Source: Trileptium ribeirensis
Taxonomy: Eukaryota; Nematoda; Enoplea; Enoplida; Thoracostomopsidae
DNA: 64,000 nucleotides
Assembly (NCBI GenBank): GCA_030248225.1
Contig: JASANE010029930.1
Coordinates: 1 to 64,000 of the forward strand
Reading direction: 5' to 3'
Within the stretch, counting starts at the first letter, position 1. Every line of letters begins with the position of its first letter. Below are positions 55,300 through 62,240 of the stretch, piece by piece. A model generated the notes under the pieces. That model was not told the DNA's origin. It did no database searches and saw only the letters and a program-made list of their open reading frames with translations. The position numbers and the translations under genes were made by a program.

Positions 55300-55510
55300 A
55301 TGGCTGTGTTCGTATCAACACAACGTAATTATATTTTTGTGGCTGCAATTTTAGATTTATTCGCTTATCTTAACCGATACTCGTGTTATTACAATAATGG
55401 CATTGGTATACGAGCTGTTGCTATTGTTAGCGCAGTTTCTCTTTGGAACATACTTGTTCATTGGTTTCGTTCAATCGCGCCTATTACAATTTGTTATCTG
55501 GCTGCGCGAG
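55300..55510 (+). CDS. NUS1: NUS1 exon 1 (membrane region)
   Basis: From ATG to donor CGAG|GTAAGA, phase 1. It encodes 70 residues with hydrophobic stretches around NYIFVAAILDLFAYL and VAIVSAVSLWNILVHWF. Confidence 0.85.
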
Positions 55511-58500
55511 GTAAGATGTAGAAAAAATATTTTACTTTGATCTGTATTTCTTTGGTTGATGCTTACGGGAATGAATATATAGAACTTATATAACCCGTTT
55601 AGTCTGACAGCCTTTAATTTTGATAATATAATATTGGTTTAAGAAGCTTGTGAGAAATGAATTAGTTATTTCTTGTTGTGGAATTCTGTGACAACATGAA
55701 TTGAAGGGTTGAGAGTAAGAAAATGGTTTGCAACACAAACTCAGTTTTGAGATAATGGCATAAAACATTTTTTGTTCTCGATTTTTTGAAAGATATGATT
55801 TACTGCAGGCCCTTTCTTAGCAATCAAACGGCAACACCTAAGCCCTTATATTAACATATGTTAATATTTTCAAGTGCATACACATAACCACTGCAGAGGG
55901 ATTTTGTCGCATACCATTTTTTGATTTCAAGAAATTCACTATATGCCCAGCTGTAAAAAAATGGTTTGTGAATTTATGCGCTCTGTTCAGCTTAAAAATG
56001 TACACCATATCCGGTATTCAAGAACGTTTACTAACAACAACGATAATACACTGGCAAAAACAAAATCAGACAAGAGAACTATATTCGCCAACGGCACTGT
56101 CTTGAAGTAGCTAAGGCTCAAAAATTCCATGCCAAGATTCTTTAGCCAGAATGAATGACTACCGTGTCTGAATGAATGATGCTGTAGCCCAATACTAACG
56201 AGATTCAAAACAACGCTTTAGACCTAGTGATTTCTATATTGTCGTGACACTTAGAAGCCTTAATCAATGCATAAATGCTCCACAGTATCTAATTCAACGT
56301 TTTTATCTAATTCGATGTTTTTGGAATTTTAAACCATTTACAAAAACGTAAATGTATTTACAAAACTATTCAAAACTGATTAATTGCTGTCGCAGAGCAG
56401 TGCTAAGTGTAGCGCGGCTTTTGTTGTAAACACAGCAAAAACAAAATAGAGAGATTGAAAAACCGCATTAGAAATAAGTTTTCCAGAGCAATACGCCGAA
56501 CAGTTCAGGAACTATCAACATCACAATGACTTAAGCTTGAATAAAACGCTCGTGCCTCCCTAGAAACAAATGGAATTTGCTTTTGTAAGTCATTAAATTT
56601 AGACGTTTTTATATCCCGACCTGGTGAAACTTGCAGCCCATCTAATATGTCGTCGCTCGATTCCGGCATTTCTCCCCTTTTACGTAACAATTTTACCGTT
56701 TTCCACTCCTCACTGTCATCAAACGAATACCGGTATGAGTATTCCCGAATCGTTCAATACGAAACCAACGAATGCTTCGCATTGAAATTTTTATCCCCTT
56801 TTTCGTTTTAGTGCGCATTACCAGATTAAGGCGCTGTGGATCCGTTTAACATCGCCTTTCTTATTCATCACCACAAGCGCCGCGCGGCAGGATCATACCG
56901 TGAGTCATATCCTTGACAGAGTATGGATTTACTCGACAGGCAGTGCGGATAATGTCAGAATAGTTCTCAGGCATCATTACAGTTTGGTGTTTCTTTACAG
57001 CCAGTTCAATAATCCCGAAATCACGGTCCGAATCTAACCAGGTATGCCCAACCTCGGGAAACTTATGCTCTATGAGTTTAAACCGCCCAATCAAAATTAA
57101 GTACTGCCAAAGACTCATTATTGTATTATTTTTATTCTGGCCTCCGCAAGAATCAGACCAAGCAATTAAGTGATCCTTATCTAATGCTTGGTTTTCGAAG
57201 AAAACAAGCAAACAGGAACCGATTTCCCCGCTCCCTCGACCGAACTGGTTTTCCGTCCACGAAAACATACTTCCGTGGCCAGACTTTCCTGTTTCACTAC
57301 TCACAGCGTGAATCCCAAAGTTATAATACCACAACTGCCGCAAGTAAAACGCAATTCCAACACTTAACTTTGGCAGCGGTAGAGTCTTCTCCAAGTCGAA
57401 CGTGACATAGAGCAGATTACGCTTCAACACGGCTTCGTTTTTATCGGATGCCATTGCTTCTGCAGCCTGTTTTACATTCGCCATGTGGTCATTCTGATCG
57501 GCTCCAGCTGCGTCACAAACGGCGCAAGTGTCACTGGCTGGAGTTCCAAATCCCAGATTTCGTTCTGTACAGAACACGTCCCGGTAATATTTCTCGTTTA
57601 CCGACTTTGTGTTATTATCATTACATTTTTTAACATACAGTTGGTGCATTTTTCTTATTGTCAATATTGGCGACAGATACAACCGGTTCGGGTTGCAGGC
57701 TCGTGAATAATGAGACCGTTCCACGGGGAACGAATCAATGTGAGCCAGAACAGCAGCTCGGATACTGTCAGGAATTTTTGTAGGACGGTTGCTATGTTTG
57801 CCTGACATAATTTCTGGGAGACCGACAGCCTGCCCAGGACTTGGTCGCAAATTGTCGATCATCGTTGTACTTATTTGAAAGATTCTGCACAGTGCTAATT
57901 TGCAAACGCGTTTGGTGACGTTGTTGCATGTAACGAAATATTGATACGACGTCTTGTGCTTCTTCTTTGCTCCAGTAACGTGCCGTTTTATTTTTTCAGG
58001 TTTGACGCAGCTATTGATGTACTGGCGCTTTTCCGCCCTTGAAGGCAAATTATAATAATGTTTAAAAAGTTCGGCTCGTTCTTCGTCGCTAATTTTATTC
58101 GTGCATTCCCATCGACAGTTATCTCGCTTCTTTTGATTTTTCTTGTCATTTCGGCATAGTGATTTATGCAGGAACGGTCGTTTAGCTGGTAGAAGCTTTC
58201 CACACGCGGTCGTTCTCGCCATTCCGGCATTTACCGCTGCTTTTCGAATATTCACCTTCCAATTTTCTGGATGTCGTGCACGGCGACGTGACTTCTTACT
58301 GTTTGGCGGCTGCGGCTCCACGTTGTTTTGCTGCAACTCCGGCTCGTTTTGAACGAGTTCAGGTGCGCTGTCTGATTCCGTGTTGCTGGACCTGCTGTCA
58401 CTTTCCGTCGTATCACTGTATTCGCCGCTACTAGGCTCGTATTTGCTACTAGTATTGCTGGGATCAGAAACATCGTCGTCGCTGTATGGAACTACCTTGC

Positions 58501-61500
58501 GGGGACACGGCATGAAGCGAGGTCTGCTTGTTGATACCCTGGTCGCTGGCGAACACATGCTCTCTATAGCTGGACATGCTAGCAAACGTTGATCGACACA
58601 CACATCGACTGACGATAAAAAGCTGAGATTCGGCGTCGGATTGTCGACATCTGCCGCATCAACAGGTTCCGTCTGCCTAAAATGTGAAAATTGTGTGTAT
58701 TATTAAATTAAAGTTATACAGAAGACATCATGGTGATGCATAACACGGTGTTCCCTTATTCGACTTGGTTCGCTCCACCATTATGATGCACCGGGCAACC
58801 TGAAATATATTGTAAAGGTAATAGTCATTTATGATGCATAAATTTTTACAGTATGAGCACATCACGGGGTTTGTTGTATTATTGCTTTTTAGCGTCACCG
58901 AAAAGACTAAGTACCAAATATATCGGCAACACAGCATGAAGTAACCCTGGTTCGACTCGTGGTGCTTAATCCTTCTGCTGCTCCTAGTTATTGTTTGTGT
59001 ATTAATGTATATAAAATTATATGTATATATACATAACAAAGCGGCTGGGCTTACTTCAGTGTATTCTGATCAGAACGCGATATATCTTGGACAGCGCTTG
59101 AAATTGCCTTTACTACCATGCCGTCCACAACTGCTTTAACGTCGATAGCGATGCTCGCCAATTTGAACATGTCGTAGTGATTAAGTCGACTATATTCCAA
59201 CAAATGCTGAATGGCATCAACATACCGCTTAGGCGTCTTCTCAGTTACAGTTAATAATTTCGAAAGTTCGCAGTTATCAAATGGAATACAAGTCGTATTA
59301 GCTGGTTCATGCGAATAACGATCGCCGAACCACCAAACATACAGTTTCCCATGTTTAAACTTTGGCGCAGCAGTTGGGTTAACTATAACCGCGGGCCAAA
59401 ACCTATTACCGTACTTTATCCAGACCCAATCGTCAATCTCTGGACTGTACACATTACTAGTTTCTGTCAAAACTTGGCGTTTTCGCTTACCGCGCATCGT
59501 TACAATTTTTTAAAAAACTATTACGGTTATTATAATGAATTACAGTACATAAGACACAGATTCAATTAGTACTTCTACTACTGTTACTATTAGCGATATC
59601 TTTACTACAACTTCTACTACTAGCAACCCTGTCTAAGAAACATCTAAAACAAAACGAAAGCTAAAACCAATCTAAAAACAGAACGATTTTACCTATAACT
59701 GTGTCGGATAAATAAGTCACAGATTCTGACATTAACGGTCATCGAATATTGTAATGTTATTTATAGGAAGTTGTTGCGCGGACTGCTGTTTAGCGCTGCA
59801 GGGTCGTATCAGGGCGTAAATGATATTGGTTCATGAGGGTTCTAGACGCTTATGCGTTCACAAATCTGAATTTTCAGACGCATTATTAACCCGTCATAAG
59901 TACATACCATTAAATTTTTCTTAACCTTCGGCTACAGAAAAGTGGTTTGCGCTCATACCATTTTTTTACAGCCGAGATGCCTTAAAATCGAGTACAAACC
60001 ACTTTTTGATTGTCCATAACTTCATTAATACGTATCCTATTCGCAAACCACTTAGTTTTTCGGAAAGAGCGCAATTTTTTGAACCACCTAGTGTTAATAA
60101 CTCAATTTTTGCCAAAATGTCGCAAACCATTTTCTTACTCTCAACCCTTCAATTGTGAAGTGGTGACTTGTATTTATTCAGTTTTGCCATAACTGGTGTA
60201 TAGTTTTGGCAAGCATTCGGGCAAATGTATTCGATATAAAAGCGACATGATATTCTCAAATGTGTGTAAGCTACGCAAACATGATCGGGATACTACCATT
60301 TTAACTTGTTAAAGCTAACCGTCAAGCTAGCTCGCGTTTACACGCTGATAAGTTCAGTGGAGTGACAACAGATCTTATAAAACTGTTTCTGTTAAATAAA
60401 TTTGATCATGTTAATTATACATAACCCCTAGTTACTGGTTAGTATTTTGAAATTCAGTTATGTTTTGCAGATATACATACAGTTACGGACATAAATATAA
60501 GCAAATCTTTCGGGAATAGCTCGTGAAAAGTTAGCAGTTATTTTGTTAGTATTTACAAATTTGTCGAACATTAACGTTTTTGGAAAGATTTGCATTTATT
60601 TCTGTCTTTAGCTATATGGCTTGTATAAAGTTTTCACCCTACGACGCATGCGACATGCACATTAATACCTTTCTAGCAACTTCATTTGATTTAGAAGTGT
60701 TGAACCGATTTTAATCTTGTGTCTATATATTTTCTTTAAAAATTTTATGTTTTCAGGCACTATGGCGACTGTTTGTTTTAGTCGTAGCACCTAGGATTTA
60801 TTCTGTGCCGAAAGTTCCCCATCATATAGGTATTGCGGTTTTGGAGCACGCGGTTGATATGGAATCTGTGATAGGTATTGCTGTTGCGTTTGTGGAACTA
60901 GGAATTAGACGGTAAGATATTTACATTTGGCTTTCTTTTAGGTTGGCCAAGGGACCTTAAACTATGAAATTAAAATTACAGATTGTCCGATCCTAATAGA
61001 AATCTTTCCGGGAATTCTCTTATGTTGTATTTTATAGAAGGATTTTTTTCAAAACTGTGTAGCCTTTAAACACTGCTTGTTACATTAATCGCCACAATTT
61101 ACCGTAGCTCGCTCGTACCTTGCTCGGGGAAAAATAACATTTTACTGATTTGCTCACTCAGTGTTCACTCGTAAGATGACAGTCAATTACGGCGAATATC
61201 GCGTGCTCTGTATTTCACTAGTTCCATTAGTTATAAACGTTTTCCGCTACCTAGAATTAATATCCTTGTTATGTTTAATACAAATGTCTATTATAGAGAT
61301 ATTTCGTATATATGTATGGCACATATTTGAAATGCACTCCATGGCAGAATTTTACGCTCTGGTGGAACATTTATTACAAAATTTTACACGCACGTGATGT
61401 AAAAAAAAGAAAGCCCTTGATAACATACATGTGTGACATTTGCGAGTGGATTATATACTATTGCATTAATAAAATGTATTAGGGATGTTTTACTGTTTAG

Positions 61501-62240
61501 CGCCATAGGGAATAAATTTAGGACTTTTGAGCCAAACAGGAAAAATTATATTTTTTGCCTAATTGTGCAAAATCGACTAGTTTTTGCTGCACTAGAAGGT
61601 GCTCAATGAAATTAAAATCCCTGTTACTATGAACTAGAGGAGGTAGCGATATCCTGGATTACTTCACATTTGAAGAATTGAATGCTTTTGGTTTATGTTT
61701 TTCAGAATAACATTTTACGATCCCGGTGGTCAGATGAAACTAAATGAAAAGAAATTACGCCGTCGTATTTTGACAAGCTGGAACGAGGTACGGTTGAAAA
61801 ATTCATACACCAATGTTGACTGCAGTAATAATGGGTGTGTTCTTGACGGAGGGCTGTTAGCTAATATTGAGATGACGTTTTTTGAAGCTACCGACGGACG
61901 ACGAGCGCTGGTGGATGTCTGTCGGCAAATGGCGTACGATATCAAGGCGCGTAAAATGTCAGTTAACATCGCTCTTCACCTGGAAACTGGCGATGTCGAG
62001 AAAGATTCGACCGGTAGCAGCTGCTGTGCTCTTATCACCGACCGCTTGGCTGAACATGGCCATGTTGAGCCTGACGCGATTGTTACTTTTGGTTCGCCTA
62101 GTAGTATGTGCGATTATCCCCCATGGTCGCTTCGCGTTTGTGAGTTGCTCGTTTACCCGAGTCATGTGGGCTTCGGTAAACGTGGAGTGATACAGGCACT
62201 TGATGCATTCGGTCGCCGTTGTCAAAGATTTGGAAAGTAG
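55300..62240 (+). CDS. NUS1: NUS1 / Nogo-B receptor, cis-prenyltransferase regulatory subunit (three exons)
   Basis: Three exons join in phase to a complete 291-residue product, about the length of known animal NUS1. In the family, NUS1 pairs with DHDDS at the ER membrane to make dehydrodolichyl diphosphate, the dolichol precursor for N-glycosylation. Residues 1-70 are hydrophobic with at least one membrane segment. Residues 71-291 follow the undecaprenyl-diphosphate-synthase-like fold: VPHHIGIAV, then GIRRITFYDPGG, PDAIVTFG and PPWSLRVCELLVYPSH. The C-terminus is QRFGK, with the RxG motif that NUS1 subunits use to activate the complex. The catalytic DGNRR-type motif is absent, as expected. 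The ATG at 55300 is preceded by an in-frame TAA at 55273. Intron 1 carries an antisense transposon. Confidence 0.93.
55703..55731 (+). repeat. Left terminal inverted repeat of the PWWP transposon
   Basis: It is identical, as reverse complement, to 60122-60150, and the match extends through the flanking AATT to 33 bp. It contains one TGGTTTG word at its inner end. Confidence 0.92.
56505..56760 (-). pseudogene. Out-of-frame remnant of the transposase C-terminus
   Basis: After the stop at 56861 the same strand holds EYSYRYSFDDSEEW...DILDGLQ and FNDLQKQIPFVSREARAFYSSL. This looks like the final 'DLQKLL..IP...FY..L' part of the family as I recall it. A frame break between 56860 and 56820 and a TGA at about 56754 (possible former CGA) separate it from the main frame. 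No splice pair restores the phase. Confidence 0.5.
56861..58676 (-). CDS. PWWP-transposase exon 2 (transposase region)
   Basis: The acceptor is TCACATTTTAG. The frame is open upstream of the first internal ATG as far as this acceptor, which supports splicing rather than an independent start. It encodes 604 residues to TAA at 56861. Confidence 0.85.
56861..59497 (-). CDS. PWWP-domain transposase (two exons)
   Basis: Two exons join in phase 2 (AA+G = Lys) to 752 residues. Residues about 18-76 form a PWWP domain: DDWVWIKYGNRFWPAVIVN, then YVWWFGDRYSHEP and IPFDN. PWWP domains bind nucleosomes with methylated H3K36 and DNA. After an acidic Ser-rich linker (about 212-255) and a basic stretch comes a transposase-like region, as in many uncharacterised invertebrate proteins I recall as DUF7869-type. 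Candidate catalytic residues are D575 (YVTFDLEK), D656 (WSDSCGGQNKN) and E705 (DFGIIE), with a C-x2-C at 532-535. The role is inferred: mobilising the element bounded by the TIRs. The end looks shortened: family-like C-terminal sequence continues out of frame at 56505-56760. Confidence 0.82.
59055..59497 (-). CDS. PWWP-transposase exon 1 (PWWP domain)
   Basis: ATG at 59497, with an in-frame TAA 13-15 bases upstream. The donor is CTGAA|GTAAGC, phase 2, after 147 codons. If unspliced the frame would end at the TAA inside the donor, giving a PWWP-only protein of 148 residues. Confidence 0.8.
59498..60121 (-). other. 5' region of the PWWP-transposase gene inside the transposon
   Basis: No further frame. 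It should hold the transposase promoter and contains several CAAACCAC/GTGGTTTGC words that could be transposase-binding sites. Confidence 0.5.
60122..60150 (-). repeat. Right terminal inverted repeat of the PWWP transposon
   Basis: It is the exact complement of 55703-55731, followed by AATT. Homology to the left end stops at the inner edge apart from scattered TGGTTTG words. Confidence 0.92.
60782..60911 (+). CDS. NUS1: NUS1 exon 2
   Basis: The acceptor ACTGTTTGTTTTAG at 60781 gives G+TC = Val and keeps the frame; the donor is GACG|GTAAGA. An equally good-looking acceptor, TTTTCAG, ends at 60756. It would add 25 bases and hit a stop within the exon, so it was not chosen. Confidence 0.88.
60912..61705. 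other. NUS1: NUS1 intron 2
   Basis: No exon or element is seen; the 78-codon frame at 61161-61397 has no domain and no flanking splice pair. Confidence 0.55.
61706..62240 (+). CDS. NUS1: NUS1 exon 3 (C-terminal domain and stop)
   Basis: The acceptor is ATGTTTTTCAG; one leading base completes Arg (CG+A). It encodes ITFYDPGG through the terminal RFGK and TAG, the diagnostic part of the protein. Confidence 0.94.

Follow-up and report, generated by a model that had tools for sequence, protein, structure and literature searches.

A terminal-inverted-repeat transposon of Trileptium ribeirensis predicted to join a PWWP domain to a DDE transposase

The sequence analyzed here, referred to as the window, is a stretch of 64,000 nt from Trileptium ribeirensis (contig JASANE010029930.1, positions 1–64,000 of the forward strand). 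It contains a 4.45-kb transposon with terminal inverted repeats (TIRs), located at 55703–60150, with a gene on the minus strand. Our main interpretation, to which we assign a probability of roughly 0.6, is that this gene splices an exon encoding a PWWP domain onto a transposase of the DDE (Asp-Asp-Glu) type, and that the PWWP domain likely tethers the enzyme to nucleosomes methylated at lysine 36 of histone H3 (H3K36), so that the element would insert mostly in transcribed gene bodies. Comparison of sequences across the genome strongly supports the fusion of the two domains as real and not due to chance.

Exon 1 (59055–59497, minus strand), delimited by its open reading frame and a splice site, encodes 148 residues from a start codon at 59497. 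It matched the Pfam PWWP family (PF00855) with 29.6 bits (cut-off, 25.6; E = 9.7e-7) over residues 23–102 (59192–59431), in agreement with the PWWP signature described for this exon in the initial annotation. A profile of nine PWWPs of the family showed no match in a protein-database search and, when searched against PDB, matched DNMT3B, NSD2/3, HDGF, and LEDGF (PC4 and SFRS1-interacting protein), with a best E value of 8.6e-12. The core motif W34-P35 was invariant in all nine PWWPs compared. Alignment with HDGF-type chains places M15, W21, and F44, the cage residues of LEDGF, on Y29 (59411–59413), W34 (59396–59398), and W56 (59330–59332), respectively. Across the nine PWWPs, the first of these columns contained an aromatic residue or Met in eight (the exception being a C at the position equivalent to M15), the second contained W in all nine, and the third was aromatic in all nine; the aromatic cage Y29/W34/W56 thus fits a methyl-lysine reader. 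Among close copies, the ratio of nonsynonymous to synonymous substitution rates for the PWWP was <1 in all 18 pairs, of 20, for which it was defined, which reflects a handful of changes and was not used as evidence.

A GT-AG intron of 378 bp was predicted at 58677–59054 (minus strand), with exon 1 ending in CTGAA/GTAAG (59055) and exon 2 starting at TTTTAG/GCAG (58676). Both sites were found to be in phase 2, as had been proposed, and the frame is open across the predicted junction. Exon 2 (56861–58676, minus strand), identified from its open reading frame and by copy comparison, matched the Pfam family DUF7869 (PF25273; 41.3 bits; cut-off, 26; E = 1.6e-10) at 56930–57250. A structure model of this exon predicts a DDE core of the RNase H-like type (residues 295–463 of the model; 56909–57415; predicted local distance difference test [pLDDT] = 87) that resembles Mos1 and retroviral integrases, with the SETMAR transposase domain also among the structural matches. 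Conservation and the model point to candidate catalytic residues D301 (in TFDLEKT; 57395–57397), D382 (in AWSDSCGGQNKN; 57152–57154), and E431 (in DSDRDFGIIE; 57005–57007). The long exon 2 had initially been considered transposase-like, with candidate D, D, and E residues, a view that the DUF7869 match and the predicted core with this triad bear out. A C-x2-C-x9-H motif (model residues C258, C261, and H271; 57485–57526), whose columns were invariant over 58 sequences, represents a possible zinc site. Against PDB sequences, the transposase profile yielded a single weak match (E = 0.33). The joined protein of the window, used by itself as a query, matched nothing in a protein database, and a scan of viral contigs was likewise negative. 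A retroelement origin of exon 2 was also considered and rejected; Pfam identified DUF7869 alone at E values up to 1, with no reverse transcriptase/integrase polyprotein in the exon.

The inverted repeats at 55699–55735 and 60118–60154 match at 97%, and their outermost 4 bp represent an AATT target-site duplication (55699–55702, on the 3′ side of the element's gene, and 60151–60154), with the TIRs themselves at 55703–55735 (plus strand, starting GAAGGGTTGAGAGTAAGAAAATGGTTTGC) and 60118–60150 (minus strand, on the 5′ side of the gene). Because AATT is palindromic, the AATT of the window alone could belong to the TIR; in the same orientation, a sister copy on contig C14730 is flanked by the non-palindromic AGTT on both sides and a copy on C17213 by AATT on both sides, as in the window, and these copies therefore indicate a 4-bp target duplication and a TIR that starts with GAAGGGTTGAGAG. 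A genome search with the 5′ end of the element identified 17 TIR ends, several of them paired as the ends of a single copy; the four bases beside them were AATT in 14, AGTT in two (both ends of the C14730 copy), and GATA in one. The motif ARTGGTWTGN, picked by eye before counting, is present at nine sites in the element, every one within 300 bp of an end (three at 55722–55970, the first of them within the TIR, and six at 59900–60131, the last of them within the TIR), and at 11 sites in the entire 64 kb; these subterminal repeats likely represent transposase binding sites. The element presents the following features of a DDE transposon: terminal inverted repeats, a target-site duplication, and a predicted RNase H-like core with D-D-E.

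The association of the two domains was assessed across the genome from which the window comes, which comprises 687 Mb in 20,229 contigs. A total of 169 DUF7869 loci were obtained by merging the 75 matches to exon 2 as a query (72 of 1025 candidates scored) with the 148 matches to the DUF7869 profile (best 150 of 313 candidates scored). PWWP loci (n = 195) were merged from a search with the PWWP exon of the window (145 matches; 150 of 216 candidates scored) and a second PWWP query (54 matches; 150 of 272 scored), along with four loci from local tblastn. A PWWP located upstream of a DUF7869 locus, on the same strand and within 6 kb, was found at 62 of the 169 loci, including 60 from the merged searches and two identified through a search with the Pfam PWWP profile. 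These pairing counts are lower bounds, as the best candidates alone were scored. By chance, pairing would be expected at approximately 0.14 loci, or approximately 0.6 when all 777 candidates of the Pfam PWWP search are counted, and chance adjacency of PWWP and transposase was rejected accordingly. Three neighbors within 6 kb presented another arrangement, and each of the contigs concerned also bears a correctly placed pair. Among the best 20 transposase loci, 18 presented a PWWP, some in part only since the locus is cut; the remaining two are on C10716, near the contig end, and on C6142, where no PWWP was seen. Neither family gave a signal in 14 control genomes searched with the DUF7869 profile and with the Pfam PWWP profile.

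Six candidates with a single open frame were scanned for both domains; an 874-amino acid (aa) frame on C9189, which is related to three of these six, was left out. In five of the six, PWWP and DUF7869 both exceeded the Pfam cut-offs and shared a single frame without interruption; these include the frame on C8546 (850 aa; PWWP, 60.1 bits; DUF7869, 44.5 bits), the frames on C6368, C8188, and C6574 (879 aa each), and the frame on C18548 (1102 aa scanned). In the sixth, on C18468, neither domain was above the cut-off. The five fusions need no splicing, and the joining predicted for the window therefore has single-frame counterparts. These data bear directly on the alternative that exon 1 is part of a neighboring host gene or an independent PWWP gene, in which case the fusion would be an accident of reading. 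PWWPs are indeed very abundant in this genome, as the Pfam search yielded 777 candidates, of which the best 150 were scored and all 150 were above the cut-off. Exon 1 is nonetheless located within the TIRs of the element and accompanies the same TIR in C17213, C14822, and C14730, and the 62 paired loci share order and strand. The five loci with both domains in one frame refute this alternative, which we regard as having next to no probability; the PWWP as merely an independent gene beside an unrelated transposase, which the initial annotation had set against the fusion, is ruled out by the single-frame loci and the pairing together with the matching TIRs and target-site duplications.

Without splicing, read-through from exon 1 stops immediately, since an in-frame TAA is contained in the donor GTAAG. 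A stop located exactly at the donor could suggest that the gene encodes two products, i.e., a PWWP-only regulator from transcripts that keep the intron and the fused transposase from spliced transcripts, similar to the P element, in which the intron-retention product is a repressor. However, the frames on C8546, C6368/C8188/C6574, and C18548 encode PWWP and transposase without an intron, and because these sister subfamilies have a single intronless frame, a separate short form is not general; we consider a two-product gene improbable.

The C8546 subfamily presented a further feature in that a 2A-like motif, GDIEPNPGP, is found in frame directly before the PWWP (L008:3537, minus strand); the same motif is present at L072:1644 (minus strand) on C19323. 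Ribosome skipping at this motif may release an N-terminal leader in this subfamily.

Under the interpretation of a PWWP-guided transposon, the transposase would bind the subterminal repeats and the TIRs, the PWWP would anchor it to nucleosomes methylated at H3K36, and a 4-bp staggered insertion, mostly at AATT, would follow from strand transfer. Binding to H3K36 methylation, targeting of active genes, and transposition activity are inferences. A different role for the fused PWWP would be that of a general nucleosome or DNA tether, or of a protein docking site, which would keep the transposase on chromatin or aid it in locating expressed copies of its own, with no steering toward H3K36-methylated gene bodies. 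PWWP domains have DNA-binding surfaces, and the cage is imperfect, since the residue aligned with M15 is C in one of the nine members. In addition, one study reports that the chromatin-binding part of LEDGF/p75 can be replaced by unrelated chromatin tethers, and that LEDGF/p75 with the PWWP deleted retains 44% of the HIV-1 cofactor activity (PMC2706977). The cage positions are nevertheless conserved in nearly all nine members compared, which argues against a general tether. The best PDB relatives also argue against it, as several of the PWWPs of DNMT3B, NSD2/3, HDGF, and LEDGF are H3K36 readers, and we regard a general tether as rather unlikely.

In the window, the element is located within a NUS1-like gene of the host, which runs on the plus strand. 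It is antisense to this gene and occupies its putative first intron, after the putative exon 1 and before exon 2. Exon 1 of this gene (55397–55510) was assigned from a splice donor and a membrane-type peptide and has no database match of its own; exon 2 (60757–60911) has no match alone and is covered by the match of the joined exons, which extends from residue 54 on; and exon 3 (61706–62240) alone matched NUS1 in PDB (E = 7.5e-7). Together, the joined exons (55397–62240) matched NUS1 chains with an E value of 1.4e-10. NUS1 is a housekeeping gene, and this insertion is therefore what gene-body targeting would give, as a single intronic case.

Several points weigh against the main interpretation. 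One intronic insertion can be due to chance and represents weak evidence. The ligands of PWWP domains further include DNA and other partners, and H3K36 methylation is thus not the sole candidate. The AlphaFold single-sequence model of exon 1 alone presented a pLDDT of 36, too low for use in assessing the beta-barrel and helices of a PWWP fold, and the best Foldseek match of the transposase core presented an E value of only 1.8e-3. No PWWP was found at 107 of the 169 DUF7869 loci, which may reflect truncation, divergence, unscored candidates, or real absence. Finally, a Mantel comparison of 10 PWWP/transposase pairs showed no correlation between the two sets of identities (r = 0.05, p = 0.38) and therefore does not demonstrate a single fusion with simple co-inheritance. 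This comparison included L006 with a partial PWWP only and L064 with a PWWP below the Pfam cut-off; L013, which starts inside the PWWP, and the near-duplicate or partial loci L005, L009, L011, L012, L014–L016, L018, and L019 were omitted. The PWWPs are short and near saturation. The transposases of C8546, C16237, and C18468 were 49–55% identical, with PWWPs just 15–18% identical, the C16237 piece being partial and the C18468 PWWP being below the cut-off; domain swapping or repeated capture of the PWWP may have taken place.

A profile search identified 78 relatives of the transposase among the best 7987 candidates scored. These are mostly metagenomic, with the named ones from the beetles Callosobruchus, Acanthoscelides, and Brassicogethes and the aphid Uroleucon; they showed 28–54% identity to exon 2 of the window over the aligned part. 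A Pfam scan of 71 relatives (seven were omitted for size) identified DUF7869 in 60 and PWWP in none; many of these records are gene calls of a single open reading frame (ORF), from which a first exon encoded apart would be absent. A plain scan for the W-P motif in the first 300 residues of all 78 relatives also found none. As none of the 71 relatives carries a PWWP, the domain seems to have been added in the lineage of the window's genome, with the reservation that separate first exons may be missed.

The copy in the window is itself damaged. Its frame runs to a stop codon at 56861 and is family-like only to approximately 56891; it departs from the family sequence at approximately 56890–56855, and family-like coding resumes in another frame to 56505. 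The C-terminal remnant (56505–56753, minus strand), out of frame with exon 2, corresponds to the same segment in the open frame of C17213. The coordinates 56861–59497 initially given for the gene thus hold, except that 56861 does not represent the natural end of the protein. Because its C-terminal frame is broken, the window copy is probably not autonomous. Related copies appear less damaged; the C17213 copy aligns end to end with that of the window at 99.2% and 97.8%, excepting window positions 56855–56890, and its frame of 719 aa continues unbroken to the C-terminus. The presence of near-identical copies at different sites suggests recent movement. Two copies of the element (L047 and L048) were found in opposite orientation, facing each other, on one 13-kb contig (C18992); these copies have similar flanks, and a tandem array of approximately 144-bp units is located close by. 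Near the C17213 copy, an open frame (L058:6696–7121) resembles an ISXO2-type transposase by eye alone.

PWWPs in this genome extend beyond the DUF7869 transposons. Twenty-seven of the 150 PWWPs scored in the Pfam search are located in open frames of ≥1000 aa; examples of PWWPs from this search include C714:36053–36244, C16487:53697–53951, and C9116:59469–59723. Among the best 150 of the 313 DUF7869 candidates, no match was found on the contigs of these 27 PWWPs except C12419, on which PWWP and DUF7869 are far apart and on opposite strands. The 1149-aa frame on C714 has its PWWP at the C-terminal end, opposite to the placement in the DUF7869 transposons. These approximately 1100-aa frames probably represent another class of multi-copy, PWWP-bearing elements. 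A broader and more tentative reading, for which we consider the odds somewhat below even, is that of a whole radiation of cut-and-paste transposons that carry their own H3K36-methylation reader (LEDGF plus integrase in one protein) and insert in transcribed gene bodies. Transposase lineages would have exchanged their PWWPs, and a PWWP (C-terminal in the one frame examined) would also have been acquired by a second multi-copy class with open frames of approximately 1100 aa, such that mobile elements would account for most of the hundreds of PWWPs of this genome.

If the proposed targeting is correct, a cut-and-paste transposon can encode its own reader of transcription-linked chromatin. Gene-body integration would then have a natural alternative to LEDGF-style tethering that needs one protein only, and the choice of insertion sites by a DNA transposon would become directly testable by mutating one cage. 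PWWP-bearing transposons would also help explain the hundreds of PWWP candidates in one genome. The initial annotation knew of no described transposon family with this architecture, and likewise no PWWP-bearing DNA transposon was described in the available parts of the open-access literature searched, a scope outside which Repbase Reports and most subscription papers fall. Within the same scope, no literature on DUF7869 or on motif strings of the protein described a PWWP-transposase fusion, and no co-mention of PWWP with Sola1/2/3 or "Sola superfamily" was found. Pot3 is reported as a transposon inserted in the gene of a fungal PWWP protein and not as a transposon that encodes a PWWP (PMC3978060).

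Among known systems, the Sola superfamily (Sola1/2/3) resembles the window element in its 4-bp AT-rich target duplications and multi-kb length, a likeness drawn from these two features. Sola2-type elements of slime molds have AWWT 4-bp target duplications and short TIRs (PMC3627910), and Sola1 elements in bivalves have a curated mean length of 5445 bp (PMC10294476). The beetle, aphid, and metagenomic DUF7869 proteins share the transposase body of the window element and differ in the PWWP, as described above. SETMAR, a fusion of a SET methyltransferase with Hsmar1 (PMC6326780), similarly joins a chromatin domain to a DDE transposase; however, SETMAR has been domesticated as a host gene, and its SET domain is a writer of marks, whereas the element described here is multi-copy with a predicted reader. 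The nearest mechanisms, by analogy, are chromodomain integrases and the LEDGF-tethered lentiviral integrase. Gypsy retrotransposons bearing chromodomains or Tudor domains likewise fuse a histone reader to an integrating enzyme, which has been linked to targeted insertion (PMC12477816), but the reader is C-terminal in a retrotransposon polyprotein, in contrast to the N-terminal PWWP of a TIR DNA transposon. In the LEDGF/p75 system, a protein with a PWWP tethers an RNase H-fold integrase to chromatin (PMC2706977), but this protein is supplied by the host and is distinct from the integrase, whereas the PWWP of the window element is part of the predicted enzyme.

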